Assembly: GCA_029060305.1 (NCBI GenBank)
Contig: JAIDUG010000055.1
Coordinates: 1 to 64,000, forward strand
Length of the DNA stretch: 64,000 nucleotides
Direction: 5' to 3'
Origin: Ruminococcus sp.
GTDB lineage: Bacteria; Bacillota; Clostridia; Oscillospirales; Ruminococcaceae
The position numbers and the translations under genes were made by a program. Within the stretch, counting starts at the first letter, position 1. Each line of letters opens with the position of its first letter. Positions 39,151-53,308 of this stretch are shown one piece after another. Below the pieces are notes generated by a model. It was not told the DNA's origin. It made no database searches and worked only from the letters and a program-made list of their open reading frames with translations.

Positions 39151-39996
39151 ATGGATAATATCATTGAAATAAGAAATCTCCGTTTCCGTTACGATTCAGA
39201 CAGTGAAAAGCCGTCCGCAGAGGTGCTGAAAGGAATAGACCTTGATATAAAGCAAGGTGAATTTATTGCGGTACTTGGTCATAATGGTTCGGGAAAATCC
39301 ACGCTTGCGAAACATCTCAATGCCATACTTCTGCCAACTTCAGGAAAGGTTACTGTTGACGGAATTGATACTGCTGACGATTCACGGCTTTTTGAACTCC
39401 GTCAGTGTGCCGGAATGGTTTTTCAGAATCCCGATAATCAGATAGTATCTTCTGTAGTTGAAGAAGATGTTGCTTTTGCACTGGAGAATTTAGGCGTACC
39501 TTACGAGGAAATGCGACAGAGAGTTGACGATTCACTGAAAGCCGTCAATATGTATGATTACAGATTTCATTCACCGGCACAGCTTTCCGGCGGTCAGAAA
39601 CAAAGGGTTGCTATTGCGGGAATTATTGCAATGCGTCCGAAGTGCATAATACTTGACGAGCCTACAGCTATGCTTGACCCTCAGGGCAGAAAGGAGGTGA
39701 TGTCAGCGGTGCGTGAGATGAACCGTAAATATGGGATAACAATTGTTCTGATTACTCACTATATGGAAGAAGCTGTCCAGTGTGACCGTGTGGTTGTAAT
39801 GGAAAGCGGACGTATTATTATGGACAATATCCCCGAAAAAGTTTTTTCGCAGGTGGAGCTTTTAAGAAAAATCGGTCTCGACGTTCCGCAGGTGACTGAA
39901 TTGTGCTGGGGTCTCAGAGAAGCAGGTGTTGATATTCCGCCGGAAATAATATCTGAGGAAGAATGTGTAAAAGTATTATTGAAATTATTAATTTGA
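39151..39996 (+). CDS. ecfA1: ECF transporter energy-coupling ATPase A1
   Basis: 281 aa; GHNGSGKSTLAKHLNAIL; LSGGQKQRVAIAGIIAMRPKCIILDEPTAMLDP. Confidence 0.93.
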   Translation: MDNIIEIRNLRFRYDSDSEKPSAEVLKGIDLDIKQGEFIAVLGHNGSGKSTLAKHLNAILLPTSGKVTVDGIDTADDSRLFELRQCAGMVFQNPDNQIVSSVVEEDVAFALENLGVPYEEMRQRVDDSLKAVNMYDYRFHSPAQLSGGQKQRVAIAGIIAMRPKCIILDEPTAMLDPQGRKEVMSAVREMNRKYGITIVLITHYMEEAVQCDRVVVMESGRIIMDNIPEKVFSQVELLRKIGLDVPQVTELCWGLREAGVDIPPEIISEEECVKVLLKLLI

Positions 39997-40009: not shown

Positions 40010-41134
40010 ATGAAAATGAAAAGAATGATTGCCGGTCTTATGGCAGTATTCGTTATGGGTGTGGGCGTACCTTATGTAAGTACGGTTACGGAAAATACTT
40101 CCGTAATGACAGCAAGTGCGGTTGATAGTGGTACATATGAATATCTCACATATTATAATTATGGAGATTATATTGAGATTTCTGGTTGTAGTAAGTCTGC
40201 AACAGAAGTTGTTATTCCGTCTGAGATAGACGGCTTACCAGTAACGAATATCGGAGAGCAAGCTTTTTATGAGTGCTGGAATTTAACATCAGTAGATATT
40301 GCTGACAGTGTAAAAAATATAGATGCTTTAGCATTTTGTTATTGCAAAAGTTTAAAAACGGTAAATATTCCTGATAGTGTTGAACGTATAGGAATGGATA
40401 CATTTGGATTTTGCAGTAGTTTAAAATCAATAAAATTGCCTGACAATATAAAAAGTATCGGAGATTATGCATTTTATGGTTGCAGTAATTTAGCATCAAT
40501 AGAGATTCCTGAAAGTCTTACAAAGATTGGTGGTTATGCTTTTTATAGAACATTATGGCTTGAAGAAAAAATGAAAGAAAATCCGTTTGTTGTAGTAAAT
40601 GAAATTTTGATTGATGGCAGAGCGTGTATAGGAGATGTAACTATTCCTGACGATGTAAAAAATATTGGATATGGTGCATTTGCTTCCAGTAGTGATTTGA
40701 AATCAATAGTTATTCCGGAGAGCGTAGTGAGTATTGGGGAAAGTTCATTCGGAGCGTGTGCAGAATTAGACAAAATAACTTTTTTAAATCCTGAATGTGA
40801 AATTGAGGGTGATAATTATACAATTACAAATAACTTTGAACATTTTTACGGTACTATATACGGTTATGAAAACTCAACCGCACAGGCATATGCTGAAAAG
40901 TACGGCAGAAGTTTTGTCTCACTCGGAAAAGTACCCGAAAAAGACCTCTCAGCAGGCGATATGAACGGCGACAACGAAGTAAGTATATCAGACGCTGTAT
41001 TACTTCAGGATTGTATTTTAGGTAAAAAGGAACTTACGGAAGAACAGTTGAAAAGTGCAGACCTCACAGGTGACGGTGTTGTTGACGTTTTTGACCTTGT
41101 TATGCTCAGACGTAAGGTTATATACGGCGAATAA
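40010..41134 (+). CDS. Secreted BspA-type LRR protein with C-terminal dockerin
   Basis: Signal peptide; LRR_5 repeats; C-terminal GDMNGDNEVSISDAVLLQDCIL...ADLTGDGVVDVFDLVMLRRKVI. Confidence 0.9.
   Translation: MKMKRMIAGLMAVFVMGVGVPYVSTVTENTSVMTASAVDSGTYEYLTYYNYGDYIEISGCSKSATEVVIPSEIDGLPVTNIGEQAFYECWNLTSVDIADSVKNIDALAFCYCKSLKTVNIPDSVERIGMDTFGFCSSLKSIKLPDNIKSIGDYAFYGCSNLASIEIPESLTKIGGYAFYRTLWLEEKMKENPFVVVNEILIDGRACIGDVTIPDDVKNIGYGAFASSSDLKSIVIPESVVSIGESSFGACAELDKITFLNPECEIEGDNYTITNNFEHFYGTIYGYENSTAQAYAEKYGRSFVSLGKVPEKDLSAGDMNGDNEVSISDAVLLQDCILGKKELTEEQLKSADLTGDGVVDVFDLVMLRRKVIYGE
40955..41131 (+). other. Dockerin domain coding region
   Basis: Two EF-hand-like duplicated segments. Confidence 0.85.
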
Positions 41135-41154
41135 ATAAAAAAGGGGTTATGATT

Positions 41155-42561
41155 ATGAAAATTAAAAGAATGATTGCCGGTCTTATGGCAGTATGTGTTA
41201 TTGGTATAAATTGCCAGTCATTAAGCAATATTTTTAATGTTACCAGAATAACGGCGTTTGCATCTTCAGAAAATACAGAGGATACATATGAACTTCTTAC
41301 ATACATAAACTATGGAGATTATATTGAGATTATCGATTGTGATTTTTATGTAGAAACGGTGGAAATTCCGGCAGAAATAGACGGTGTACCGGTAACAAGC
41401 ATCAGATATAATACGTTTTGTAATTGTTCCGATTTAAAATCAATAGTTATTCCGGATAGTGTGACAATTATCGGAGAACGTGCATTTTTTGGTTGTACAA
41501 GTTTAACATCAATAAAAATTCCGGATAGTGTAACAACTATCGGATATGGTGCATTTTATGATTGTACAAATCTGACATCAATAGAAATTCCGGATAACAT
41601 AAAAAATATTGAAGGTCAGGTATTTTATGGTACATCGTGGCTTGAAGAAAAGAGAAAAGAAAGTCCGTTTGTTATTGTAAATGAAATTTTAATTGACGGT
41701 TATACCTGCTCCGGTGACATAATTATTCCGGATAGTGTAACAAGTATCGGAGATGGTGCATTTCAAGGTTGTAACGGTCTGACATCAATAGTCATTCCAG
41801 ATAGCATAATAAGTATTGGAAATAATGCATTTTGGGATTGTAAAAGTTTGACGTCAATAGTCATTCCGGATAGCATAATAAGTATCGGAAATGGTGCATT
41901 TGGTGGTTGTTCTGATTTAAAATCAATAAAAATTTCTGACAGTGTAACTACTATCGGAAAAAATACATTTTATTATTGCACAGGTTTAACATCAATAGAA
42001 ATTTCCAAGAGATTAGACACAATCAGTGAAAATATGTTTAATCATTGTTATAGTCTGACAACAGTGGAAATTCCGGAAAGTGTAACAAGTATTGAATGGA
42101 TGGCATTTTATGAATGTGAAAATTTAACATCAATCACAATTTTAAATCCGGAATGTAAGATTTATGATAGAAATAATACAATTACAAATATAAATACTGG
42201 TAATGGCAATACAACACCTTATTTTAATGGGACTATTTATGGATATGATAATTCCACAGCACAGGCATATGCTGAAAAGTATGGCTGTAAATTTGTATCA
42301 CTGGGACAATTTACCGAAAAAGAAGTATTATTGGGAGACGTAAACGGTGACAATTTTGTAAATGCAGTAGATGCTACAATGGTACTTGTTGAGTATGCAG
42401 AACTTTCAACAGGAAATTCTTCAACATTAACGGAAAGTGCTGGAAAATCGGCTGATGTTAATAAGGACGGAATGATTAATGCAGTAGACGCTACTGTTAT
42501 TCTGCAATATTACGCACATCTTTCAACAGGCGGAACAGGTTCTATAGAAAATTTCACATAA
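41155..42561 (+). CDS. Secreted BspA-type LRR protein with C-terminal dockerin (tandem paralog)
   Basis: MKIKRMIAGLMAV signal nearly identical to upstream gene; many LRR_5 repeats; dockerin GDVNGDNFVNAVDATMVLVEYAEL...ADVNKDGMINAVDATVILQYYAHL; ATG 41155 better spaced than 41149. Confidence 0.9.
   Translation: MKIKRMIAGLMAVCVIGINCQSLSNIFNVTRITAFASSENTEDTYELLTYINYGDYIEIIDCDFYVETVEIPAEIDGVPVTSIRYNTFCNCSDLKSIVIPDSVTIIGERAFFGCTSLTSIKIPDSVTTIGYGAFYDCTNLTSIEIPDNIKNIEGQVFYGTSWLEEKRKESPFVIVNEILIDGYTCSGDIIIPDSVTSIGDGAFQGCNGLTSIVIPDSIISIGNNAFWDCKSLTSIVIPDSIISIGNGAFGGCSDLKSIKISDSVTTIGKNTFYYCTGLTSIEISKRLDTISENMFNHCYSLTTVEIPESVTSIEWMAFYECENLTSITILNPECKIYDRNNTITNINTGNGNTTPYFNGTIYGYDNSTAQAYAEKYGCKFVSLGQFTEKEVLLGDVNGDNFVNAVDATMVLVEYAELSTGNSSTLTESAGKSADVNKDGMINAVDATVILQYYAHLSTGGTGSIENFT
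41439..42130 (+). repeat. Intragenic 69-bp (23-aa) LRR tandem repeats
   Basis: Near-identical units, e.g. GTCATTCC(A/G)GATAGCATAATAAGTAT starting at 41791 and 41860. Confidence 0.85.
42334..42558 (+). other. Dockerin domain coding region
   Basis: Duplicated D-x-N-x-D calcium-binding segments with repeated NAVDAT. Confidence 0.88.
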
Positions 42562-42577
42562 AAAAGGAGCGATATAA

Positions 42578-43441
42578 TTGGCGGTACTTAAAACAGAAGA
42601 ACTCACTTATATATACAGTCAGGGGACACCTTTTGAAAAGACAGCAGTAGACCACGTAAACCTTGAAATAAAAGAGGGCGAAATTATAGGTATTATGGGA
42701 CATACCGGCTCGGGAAAATCCACGCTTATACAGCATTTCAATGCTCTGCTGAAACCCACTTCCGGAAAGGTCTACCTTGACGGCAGGGACATATGGGCGG
42801 ACAAGTCACAAATCCGTGAAGTCCGTTTCAAAGTAGGACTTGTCTTTCAGTATCCTGAGTATCAGATTTTCGAGGAAACCGTCTATAAGGATATTGCTTT
42901 CGGTTGCAGGAATATGAGACTTTCCGAAAATGAAATAAAACGACGTGTTACTGAAACAGTCCACGATATAGGACTTCCGGAAGAAATTCTCAGCTGTTCG
43001 CCTTTTGAACTTTCCGGCGGACAGAAAAGGCGTGTTGCGATTGCAGGAGTTATGGCAATGAATCCAAGAGTTTTAATTCTTGACGAGCCGTCGGCTGGTC
43101 TTGACCCTGTAGGACGTAAAAGAATTTTCGACTGTATAAAGGCTTATCACAAAAAAACAAAAAACACTATTCTCATAGTCTCGCACAGTATGGAAGATAT
43201 TGCTACATTTGCGGACAGGATTCTTGTTATGAACAAAGCTGGTATATTCTGTTTTGACGAAACTCCGAAAGTTTTTTCACGTGCGGAGGAAATTTCTGCA
43301 ATAGGTCTTGACGTTCCGCAGATAACAAGGATTTTTATTGAACTCAGAAAACACGGAATTGATTTCGGAGAAGAAGTTTATACGGTTGACAGTGCAAGAG
43401 AAGTCATTTTAAAGTATCTCAGGAAAAGGCAGGGTGTATAG
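42578..43441 (+). CDS. ecfA2: ECF transporter energy-coupling ATPase A2
   Basis: 287 aa; TTG start; GHTGSGKSTLIQHFNALLKPTSG; LSGGQKRRVAIAGVMAMNPRVLILDEPSAGLDP. Confidence 0.93.
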   Translation: MAVLKTEELTYIYSQGTPFEKTAVDHVNLEIKEGEIIGIMGHTGSGKSTLIQHFNALLKPTSGKVYLDGRDIWADKSQIREVRFKVGLVFQYPEYQIFEETVYKDIAFGCRNMRLSENEIKRRVTETVHDIGLPEEILSCSPFELSGGQKRRVAIAGVMAMNPRVLILDEPSAGLDPVGRKRIFDCIKAYHKKTKNTILIVSHSMEDIATFADRILVMNKAGIFCFDETPKVFSRAEEISAIGLDVPQITRIFIELRKHGIDFGEEVYTVDSAREVILKYLRKRQGV

Positions 43442-49233: not shown

Positions 49234-50133
49234 ATGGAAACACAGTTCTGGTGGTTTTATGATGTAATGGCGGTTGCCGTTGTGGCTTTAAGCCTTTACA
49301 TCGGAGGCAGAAAAGGTATATTAAAATCAGCGGTTACTTTTGTAAGCTGTATATTGGGAATACTTTTAGCTGTACCAATGAGCAGTGCTGTTTCAGAAAG
49401 TATCTACAAAACGACAATTCGTGACAGCAATATAAGCAAACTTGACAAATCGCTGATAGACGTTGAAATATCTTCATATCTTGGTAACAGCCTTGAAAAT
49501 ATGGGATATAATGTAATTGTCAATACTGAAAAGATTGACGAAATTCTCAGTTCTGATAAGGACGTTGACGAACAGCTTTACAAGTACCTTAATAACATTA
49601 ACGGAAAAGTTGTTGACAACGAGGTGAATTTCCGTACTAACCTTAATGAATGTTATTCGGTGGTAATGAAAAAACTCATTTCTGAAGATATGAGTAAATA
49701 CGCTGTTGCAACAGCTTCACGAAAAATAAGGGACGGCGGAACGGATTTCGGAAATCTTCTGAAAATGATAAAAACCGGCGAACAACGTAAAGAAGTGGCG
49801 AAAATAATATCAGATGATTATGTGGCAGATGCTTACAGGAATGTTATAAGACTTCTTGTATGTCTGATAGTGTTTGTGGTAGTATTTATTATAGGACTTC
49901 TTACCGCAAAATCTCTTACAGGCGGTCAGCGTGAATCATATGAAAGTACCGGTTCACATATTGCCGGAGGTGTGTGCGGAATTTTTTCCGGAGCAGGAAT
50001 TTTATTCATGATTGCTGTGATATTACGGCTCTATTCAGTTATCGGAAATAATGAAATGTTATTTTTTAGCAACAAAGCTATTGACAAAACCTTTATTTTC
50101 AGGTATGCTTATAATATTGCTTCTAATCTATGA
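49234..50133 (+). CDS. CvpA-family-like membrane protein
   Basis: 299 aa; VMAVAVVALSLYIGGRKGILKSAVTFVSCILGILLA and C-terminal TMs. Confidence 0.65.
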   Translation: METQFWWFYDVMAVAVVALSLYIGGRKGILKSAVTFVSCILGILLAVPMSSAVSESIYKTTIRDSNISKLDKSLIDVEISSYLGNSLENMGYNVIVNTEKIDEILSSDKDVDEQLYKYLNNINGKVVDNEVNFRTNLNECYSVVMKKLISEDMSKYAVATASRKIRDGGTDFGNLLKMIKTGEQRKEVAKIISDDYVADAYRNVIRLLVCLIVFVVVFIIGLLTAKSLTGGQRESYESTGSHIAGGVCGIFSGAGILFMIAVILRLYSVIGNNEMLFFSNKAIDKTFIFRYAYNIASNL

Positions 50134-50206: not shown

Positions 50207-52549
50207 ATGATGATGTGCAGTAAATGTAAAAAAAGAATGGCAGTAATTTTTATTACTTCCGTACAGGGAAATGAAAAGAAAAATGAGGGACTTTGTCTTG
50301 CCTGTGCAAGAGAGCAGAGGATTCCGCAGGTATCGGAGTTTATGGACAAATTTGATATAACAGATGAGAAGATAGACCAGCTTTCTGACCAGATGATGAA
50401 TATGTTTGATAATGACAGCTTTGGAAACAGCTTTGAAATGGGCGGAGCAGGCACTATTCCTGAATTTCTTTCGGATATTTCAAAAGAAGATGGTATGCCG
50501 GACTTTCCTTCTCTTTTCGGTATGTCGTCTATGAAACCTGATTCTGAAGAACCTAAGAAATCTATAGACGGAAAACCTGACAGAAGAAGTATATTCGGCG
50601 GAAACAGACGTGAAAAGAAACCCAAAGAACTTAAATTTCTTGGAAACTACTGTACAAATCTTTCAAAAAAAGCTGCCGATGGTGAACTTGACAATATTAT
50701 AGGACGTGACAAGGAAATCGCACGTGTTATACAGATTATGTCGAGACGTACAAAAAACAATCCTTGTCTTATCGGTGAGCCAGGCGTCGGAAAAACCGCT
50801 ATTGCTGAGGGTATCGCACAGCGTATAAACGAGGGTGACGTGCCTTTTAATCTTGCTGACAAGAAAGTCTATCTGCTTGACCTTACCGCACTTGTTGCAG
50901 GAACACAGTTCAGAGGACAGTTTGAAAGCCGTGTGAAAGGTCTTATTGACGAGGTAAAGCGTGAGGGCAATGTAATTCTGTTTATTGACGAGGTTCACAA
51001 CCTTGTGGGAGCAGGTGATTCCGAGGGTTCAATGAATGCCGCAAATATTCTTAAACCGGCACTTTCGAGAGGTGAAATTCAAGTAATCGGTGCTACTACT
51101 TTCAGCGAGTATAGAAAGTATATTGAAAAAGATGCAGCACTTGAAAGACGTTTCCAGCCGGTGACGGTTGCAGAGCCGACAATTGAGGAAACTGTAGATG
51201 TACTTCTCGGAATTAAAAAATATTACGAAAATTATCACAGAGTACACATTTCTGACTATCTTGTAAGAGCTTGTGCAGTATTGTCAGAAAGATATATTAC
51301 AGACCGTTTTCTGCCGGATAAAGCTATCGACCTGCTTGATGAGGGATGTGCAAGGGCTTGCATACGTTCAAAGGAGATAGCGGAGTATGATAAACTCAGA
51401 AAACAGATTTCCGTATTAGAGGGTATGGAAAAGAGCATTTCCGAACAGACAGAGCCGGATTATCAGGCACTTGCGGAAGTAAAGGGAAAACTCATTCACG
51501 CACGTGAAGAGGAAAAAGTCCTGAAAGAAAAAGCGGAAAGTGTACAGGTTACAGAGGAAGATATTACAAAGGTTGTTGAACTCTGGACGGGTATTCCTGC
51601 AAGCAAGATTGCTGAAACAGAATTTCTTAAAATAGCACGTCTTGAGGGTGCATTGAAGAAACGTGTTCTCGGACAGGACGAGGCAGTTGAAACACTTGCA
51701 AAAGCAATCAAGCGTACAAGAGTACATCTCAACAAACGCCGTCGTCCTGCATCATTTATCTTTGTAGGACCTACAGGAGTGGGAAAAACTGAACTTGTAA
51801 AGGCACTTGCTGAAGAAATGTTTGATTCAACAGAACCGCTTATCCGACTTGATATGACGGAATATATGGAAAAACATTCTGTTGCACGAATGATAGGTTC
51901 GCCTCCCGGATACGTGGGTTACGATGAAGCAGGACAGCTTACTGAAAAAGTCCGTCGTCGTCCGTATTCTGTAATACTTTTTGACGAAATAGAAAAGGCA
52001 CACCCTGATGTAATGAATATTCTTATGCAGATTCTCGACGAGGGCAAGGTTGACGACGCTCACGGCAGAACGATAAATTTTGAAAATACAATAATCTGTA
52101 TGACTTCCAATGCCGGTTCTACTGACAAGACGGTCGGAGTAGGATTCAACAGAACTGAAAACGAGATTTCACGTGATAAAGCTATGAAAGGTTTGCGAGA
52201 GTTCCTCAGACCTGAATTTATCAGTCGTATTGACGAAGTTGTTGTATTCAGACAGCTTGACAAGAAAGATTTCGCAAGTATCGCCTCACTTATGCTTGAC
52301 GAGATGGTTGCACCTCTTTCAGAAAAAAATCTCAGCATAAGTTATGACAGCAAGGCACTTTCGCTTATTGCAGAAAAATCCTATGGAAAGCCTTACGGTG
52401 CAAGAGATATAAGACGTGTTATACGTCAGGACATCGAGGACAAAATAGCTGAAATAATTATAGAAAAAATTTCCGAAATAAGTGGTATTGATATTTCTGC
52501 TGACGGTGAAAATCTGACTGTTACTGCAAAGGAAAAAAAGGAGCAGTAA
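50207..52549 (+). CDS. Clp ATPase with N-terminal zinc finger (ClpE/ClpC-like)
   Basis: 780 aa; CSKC...CLAC finger; two AAA+ domains (GEPGVGKTAIAEGIA; GPTGVGKTELVKALAEEMF). Confidence 0.92.
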   Translation: MMMCSKCKKRMAVIFITSVQGNEKKNEGLCLACAREQRIPQVSEFMDKFDITDEKIDQLSDQMMNMFDNDSFGNSFEMGGAGTIPEFLSDISKEDGMPDFPSLFGMSSMKPDSEEPKKSIDGKPDRRSIFGGNRREKKPKELKFLGNYCTNLSKKAADGELDNIIGRDKEIARVIQIMSRRTKNNPCLIGEPGVGKTAIAEGIAQRINEGDVPFNLADKKVYLLDLTALVAGTQFRGQFESRVKGLIDEVKREGNVILFIDEVHNLVGAGDSEGSMNAANILKPALSRGEIQVIGATTFSEYRKYIEKDAALERRFQPVTVAEPTIEETVDVLLGIKKYYENYHRVHISDYLVRACAVLSERYITDRFLPDKAIDLLDEGCARACIRSKEIAEYDKLRKQISVLEGMEKSISEQTEPDYQALAEVKGKLIHAREEEKVLKEKAESVQVTEEDITKVVELWTGIPASKIAETEFLKIARLEGALKKRVLGQDEAVETLAKAIKRTRVHLNKRRRPASFIFVGPTGVGKTELVKALAEEMFDSTEPLIRLDMTEYMEKHSVARMIGSPPGYVGYDEAGQLTEKVRRRPYSVILFDEIEKAHPDVMNILMQILDEGKVDDAHGRTINFENTIICMTSNAGSTDKTVGVGFNRTENEISRDKAMKGLREFLRPEFISRIDEVVVFRQLDKKDFASIASLMLDEMVAPLSEKNLSISYDSKALSLIAEKSYGKPYGARDIRRVIRQDIEDKIAEIIIEKISEISGIDISADGENLTVTAKEKKEQ

Positions 52550-52552
52550 GGT

Positions 52553-53257
52553 ATGAAACTTAAATTAATTATTCTTACTGCTGTATTATGCCTTACTACC
52601 GTTTCGTGCAGTGAAAAGAAAGAAAATTCCTATTCAAGTAATGAAGTATCAGTCAATTCCTCAGTTGATTCCGTTGTAACCGATAATGACAATAATCATA
52701 ATATAGACCTGCCGGAAAGCAGGGCAGTTATGAAAGAAAAATATAAGGACGTTCCTGAAGTTTCTGAAGGTGCTGTAATAAGTGTAAGCAACACTACTGC
52801 AAAAGCCGGTGAAATTGCTGAAGTTACTGTTTCTTTGGAAGGTAAAGATGTTAAATGGAATATGTGTGGTATGCATTTGGCTTATCCGGAAGAACTTAAA
52901 TGTATTTATCCGGAAGATGAAGAAATTATGCTGGAATTTGAACAGGGTGAGGCAGTAAAACGTAATACTGGTCTTATTGTTATGGAGTGGAAAAAAGAAA
53001 ACAATCCTCCGGCAGAACTTGTAAATAAAAAGCTCGGTTCATTGTTTTTCACTGTAACGTTTAACAAAGACGACGGTAAGGACGGGGATATTCTGACTGT
53101 ATACTTCAAAGTGCCTGAAGATGCAAAATCAGGTACGGTATATCCTATAGATTTCTATTATATGGAAAGCGATATATTCAGAAATCTTGATAATGACCCG
53201 TCATTTGAAAAATATGCTTTTGAACATACTCAGGCAGGTTCAATAACTGTTGAGTAG
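52553..53257 (+). CDS. Lipoprotein with a cohesin-like domain (ScaE-type)
   Basis: Signal with Cys at residue 19 (TVSC); GAVISVSNTTAKAGEIAEVTVSLEG...MCGMHLAYPEELKC...TVYFKVPEDAKSGTVYPIDFYYMESDIFRNLDND...QAGSITV. Confidence 0.75.
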   Translation: MKLKLIILTAVLCLTTVSCSEKKENSYSSNEVSVNSSVDSVVTDNDNNHNIDLPESRAVMKEKYKDVPEVSEGAVISVSNTTAKAGEIAEVTVSLEGKDVKWNMCGMHLAYPEELKCIYPEDEEIMLEFEQGEAVKRNTGLIVMEWKKENNPPAELVNKKLGSLFFTVTFNKDDGKDGDILTVYFKVPEDAKSGTVYPIDFYYMESDIFRNLDNDPSFEKYAFEHTQAGSITVE

Positions 53258-53277: not shown

Positions 53278-53308
53278 CAGGGGAACACAATGTTCCCCTG
53301 ATTTTTTT
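53278..53308. terminator. Bidirectional terminator
   Basis: CAGGGGAACA-caa-TGTTCCCCTG then T-run. Confidence 0.85.

Follow-up and report, generated by a model that had tools for sequence, protein, structure and literature searches.

The closest described relative of the protein analysed here is CohG (also termed ScaG) of Ruminococcus flavefaciens FD-1 (PDB entries 4n2o and 4wkz), a single type III cohesin that carries neither a dockerin nor a sortase signal and represents an already known protein family. A 2015 FEBS Letters paper reportedly proposed it as a 'molecular shuttle', and both the title and the shuttle idea are borne out by papers citing it. The literature treats CohG as a stand-alone protein and mentions neither lipidation nor a ClpE neighbour; no statement of CohG as a lipoprotein or as a member of a clpE operon was found in the literature searched, which leaves out most subscription journals. 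In FD-1, CohG is bound by the X-dockerin (XDoc) of ScaB, the dockerin of ScaF and, very weakly, the XDoc of CttA and the dockerin of ScaH (PMC5301203). ScaE (2zf9, 4iu2 and 8ajy) is also a type III cohesin and, like CohG, binds group-4 dockerins in FD-1, but is fixed to the wall by sortase via a long Thr-rich linker. ScaG of Clostridium clariflavum, likewise a single-cohesin, monovalent scaffoldin predicted to be anchored to the cell (PMC4788839), has a type I cohesin and only its name in common with CohG. The gene described here, cohG, lies at positions 52,553–53,257 (+ strand) of a 64,000-nucleotide stretch of DNA (the window) from another species, Ruminococcus sp. (contig JAIDUG010000055.1 of assembly GCA_029060305.1); its product is an orthologue of CohG with a conserved signal for lipid anchoring, encoded directly behind clpE.

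The open reading frame encodes a predicted lipoprotein of 234 residues with one cohesin domain, as judged from its translation, phmmer matches and orthologues, and is preceded by a ribosome-binding site, aggag (52,539–52,543), 9 nt upstream of the ATG. Its coordinates and translation match a preliminary description of this DNA, which had listed a hydrophobic leader, Cys19, a Ser/Asn-rich linker and one domain. The leader, MKLKLIILTAVLCLTTVS (52,553–52,606), is of the Sec/signal peptidase II (SPII) type and is followed by the codon of the lipobox cysteine, Cys19 (position +1; 52,607–52,609), so that residues 1–19 end in TTVSC. A polar linker rich in Ser, Asn and Asp (residues 20–75; 52,610–52,777) connects the leader with the single C-terminal cohesin (residues 76–234; 52,778–53,254), which is delimited by Pfam PF00963 from residue 76 and by alignment to 4n2o up to residue 234. 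In an alignment of 115 orthologues, whose linkers are Ser/Glu/Asp-rich, the linker measures about 53 residues in the window protein and 11–69 (median 41) across the family. The window protein has no dockerin and no LPXTG; a C-terminal sortase signal was sought and not found in it (the chain ends ...AGSITVE), and no LPXTG-type motif occurs in any orthologue.

The best structural matches of the window protein are the R. flavefaciens 'Autonomous cohesin' entries 4n2o (phmmer E 7.5e-51, residues 43–234) and 4wkz (E 8.9e-51), which identify the C-terminal domain as a cohesin. The ScaE structures are matched at only about 1e-6 to 1e-5, with a bit score of 32 as against 176 for 4n2o. The resemblance to ScaE noted in the preliminary description is thus real but secondary, and a ScaE-like identity is ruled out by the far closer match to CohG (about 1e-50 versus about 1e-6); by sequence, the window protein is an orthologue of CohG/ScaG and no ScaE variant. 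The Pfam Cohesin model scores 22.8 bits on the isolated protein, below its cut-off of 24.1, and exceeds the cut-off in the whole-genome search; NCBIfam holds no model for CohG. Among 398 genomes of the family, good matches were confined to one genus, in which 114 of 125 genomes contain an orthologue at a threshold of E 1e-20, very seldom in more than one copy. One of these, in genome G399 (locus L088; N terminus MKRKASAAAAVLMALSLMTGCADKSGG), matches 4n2o at 100% identity along 187 residues and the window protein at 48%. The 115 distinct orthologue sequences aligned have a median pairwise identity of 40% and fall into 72 clusters at 70%; the presence of CohG in 114 of 125 genomes, together with the invariance of Cys19 at this level of divergence, argues that the window cohesin is not a chance match. 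Three genomes (G481, G480 and G506) contain cohG and 69–118 dockerin matches with almost no other Pfam cohesin match, which may be due to gaps in the assemblies or to a cellulosome pared down to cohesins with a lipid anchor.

The signal for lipid anchoring is the most strongly conserved part of the leader. The lipobox cysteine is retained in all 115 orthologues, and the preceding position is Gly, Ser or Ala in every one of them; the cysteine is the only invariant leader position, its neighbouring columns having an entropy of 1.5–3 bits. By automatic rule a PROSITE-type lipobox core fits 110 of the 115 sequences, and the other five keep the cysteine but differ from this core in one of the outer positions. 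Position −3, occupied by Thr in the window protein, is Leu, Ala, Met, Phe, Ser, Val, Thr or Ile in all orthologues but one. The TTVSC of the window leader agrees with the PROSITE PS51257-type core, and the Thr that had been flagged as non-canonical (TVSC) is ordinary for this family; the idea that it makes the lipobox fortuitous or non-functional is ruled out by the conservation of the cysteine in 115 of 115 sequences. The G399 copy has a canonical lipobox, MKRKASAAAAVLMALSLMTGC; because this copy is identical to 4n2o, the gene behind the crystallised CohG encodes a textbook lipobox. In the 4n2o crystal sequence, the aligned residues begin only downstream of the lipobox. Genes for both Lgt and LspA are present in the host genome, in line with the lipoprotein leader first proposed for this single cohesin. 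The leaders of ScaC, the ScaA-like protein, ScaB, the CttA-like protein and ScaE in the same genome lack a lipobox, so that among these proteins it is specific to CohG. Taken together, the sequence evidence for lipidation of CohG is strong.

The gene clpE, predicted to be the first of an operon, encodes a protein-unfolding AAA+ ATPase of the ClpE type with 780 residues (50,207–52,549, +; Pfam AAA_2, AAA_lid_9 and ClpB_D2-small) with an N-terminal CxxC...CxxC zinc motif, and ends 3 bp ahead of the cohG ATG. Upstream sequence sufficient for the comparison was available at 113 orthologous loci, and at 110 of them clpE directly precedes cohG, most often overlapping it; 108 of these adjacencies were found automatically and two (L040 and L046) after inspection of the gene starts. 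The G399 copy likewise sits behind clpE. The genes downstream of cohG in the window are rarely kept (a glutaredoxin-like gene at 13 of 108 loci and a SpoIID-like gene at 12 of 108). A candidate sigma-70-like promoter, TTGACA-17-TATGCT (50,081–50,109, +), upstream of clpE comes from a consensus scan in which the number of sites was not above the shuffled background, and a strong intrinsic terminator with a 10-bp stem and a T run follows cohG (53,278–53,308, +). A search for a CtsR operator at the operon found none, and control by CtsR was dropped as an explanation.

The host genome (G000, 2.47 Mb) encodes the partners expected of such a protein. Contig C17 carries a complete sca cluster of scaC, a ScaA-like gene, scaB, a CttA-like gene and scaE; ScaB has seven cohesins and a C-terminal XDoc, and the CttA-like protein also has an XDoc. 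The XDoc chain in the CohG entry, 4wkz_A, is matched by the ScaB XDoc at 2e-24 and by that of the CttA-like protein at 2e-17. The host scaE (L068:15265-16458) encodes a cohesin matching 2zf9 at 1.5e-22 and a C-terminal sortase signal, SPKTG–TM (transmembrane segment)–RKK. With 93 dockerin matches and four sortase matches in addition, the genome scan supports the placing of this cohesin in an organism rich in dockerins. CohG as a stand-in for a missing ScaE is ruled out by the presence of ScaE and sortases; because the host has its own ScaE, a lipid-anchored CohG would add to the sortase anchor rather than replace it.

Two dockerins in the window had been suggested for a binding assay, of which one is a candidate partner. 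A leucine-rich-repeat protein (41,149–42,561, +) has a C-terminal dockerin (42,331–42,510) that aligns directly to that of host ScaB (E 1e-11), placing it in the ScaB/CttA-like class bound by CohG in R. flavefaciens and making the protein a candidate client of CohG and ScaE. About fifteen host dockerins resemble it, those of ScaB and the CttA-like protein being among the weaker matches. The dockerin (40,952–41,119) of a second leucine-rich-repeat protein (40,010–41,134, +) gave no alignment to the ScaB dockerin in the direct comparison; it belongs to another class, and the protein is no predicted client. The two genes (40,010–42,561) are flanked by genes resembling the ATPase of energy-coupling factor (ECF) transporters (39,151–39,996 and 42,578–43,441). 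Elsewhere in the genome, a row of genes on contig C50 (L069:1094-5148, −) encodes a dockerin-bearing cyclase-fold protein, a 200-residue membrane-anchored single cohesin, a DUF4430 lipoprotein and an ECF-type transporter component, and resembles an uptake unit for a vitamin or small molecule whose parts are joined by a cohesin–dockerin pair.

A second predicted cohesin lipoprotein, of 337 residues, is encoded on contig C52 (L070:1057-2067, +; about 129,556–130,566). The cohesin, within the C-terminal 154 residues, is circularly permuted, with the strand region usually found at the end of the domain moved to its start. Profile alignment to host cohesins covered 80 columns with the single sequence (probability 86%); with a doubled sequence it spanned the joint and reached 126 columns (94%). 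Relatives occur in 117 of the 125 genus genomes, including all 68 of high quality, and a lipobox-type leader was present in each of the 30 sequences inspected. In genome G438 (L161) the slot behind clpE holds a lipoprotein of this family and not CohG. A literature search for circularly permuted cohesins returned nothing relevant, and this lipoprotein is possibly more novel than the findings on CohG.

We rate as reasonably probable a role of CohG as a membrane-tethered site of docking and hand-over beneath the wall. Export would go through Sec; Lgt would attach a lipid to Cys19 and LspA would cleave the protein, leaving the cohesin tethered by its flexible linker to the outside of the cytoplasmic membrane. 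There, as ScaB, CttA-like proteins and others with a dockerin of that class emerge from the translocon, it would most likely bind their XDocs or dockerins, retain these clients at the membrane and deliver them to ScaE, either once sortase has anchored it or while it is still an unsorted precursor. Through co-translation with ClpE, the supply of CohG would be coupled to protein quality control. The scheme would amount to a membrane-tethered form of the published 'molecular shuttle' idea. A wider version, in which a clpE–cohG operon found throughout the genus provides a membrane-tethered cohesin that hands parts to ScaE, cellulosome assembly includes a dedicated stage under the wall and the permuted-cohesin lipoprotein offers a parallel docking site, is tentative, and we think it possible but doubtful.

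The preliminary description had seen in CohG another way to hold dockerin proteins on the cell. Of this, the lipobox and the missing sortase signal stand, but a surface anchor is the less likely outcome. Its fullest form, a permanent lipid-based anchor displaying dockerin proteins on the cell surface alongside ScaE, would account for the lipobox, the cohesin and the dockerin class shared with ScaE, yet appears unlikely: even when fully extended, a linker of the median length of 41 residues (range 11–69) would measure about 14 nm, which is little relative to a Gram-positive wall, the genome has a ScaE with a sortase signal, and the reported affinity of CohG is weak (PMC5301203). The estimated reach from the membrane of about 15–20 nm (some 41 residues at 0.35 nm, plus the domain) ends under or inside the wall. 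Because the linker does not appear long enough to present a cellulosome beyond the wall, docking at the membrane side is the more likely arrangement. CohG could also be released, by shedding or by cleavage of its flexible linker, and then act in soluble form as a shuttle or dockerin cap, following the proposal for R. flavefaciens, with a lipid stage that is transient or incidental; a leader cysteine invariant in 115 sequences would be superfluous in a protein secreted in soluble form, and we regard this release as improbable. Still less probable is a quality-control or sensor part that monitors the load of dockerin proteins, or their misassembly, at the membrane while ClpE acts in the cytoplasm. 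The near-universal coupling to ClpE and the replacement of CohG by the permuted-cohesin lipoprotein in the G438 slot would suit such a sensor, but CohG lacks any transmembrane part for signalling, the membrane would separate it from ClpE, and the CtsR operator was not found.

Several points weigh against membrane-tethered docking and hand-over. The literature yielded no experiment on the lipidation or localisation of CohG, and its binding was weak in cellulose microarrays (PMC5301203). An AlphaFold model built from five sequences is of low confidence (predicted local distance difference test, pLDDT, 51) and lends no support. The clpE–cohG pairing could have been conserved through inertia and not for its function. 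In five genomes (G438, G444, G449, G450 and G502) clpE is present but there is no CohG orthologue above the E 1e-20 threshold, so that cohG is not indispensable; joint loss of cohG and dockerins was not seen, as G444, G449 and G450 retain 42–68 dockerin matches.

To what was known of CohG the analysis adds the spread of its orthologues, the invariance of the lipobox cysteine, the adjacency to clpE and a complete sca cluster with ScaE and XDoc partners in the same genome. Lipid-anchored as well as sortase-anchored cohesins would thus belong to the basic equipment of the genus. The conserved lipid-anchor signal would place CohG, so far a stand-alone protein of unclear role, at the membrane, where the 'shuttle' proposal becomes directly testable, and the close link to clpE offers a second handle on its role. 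Both bear on the assembly of cellulosomes, very large multi-protein complexes, outside the membrane.
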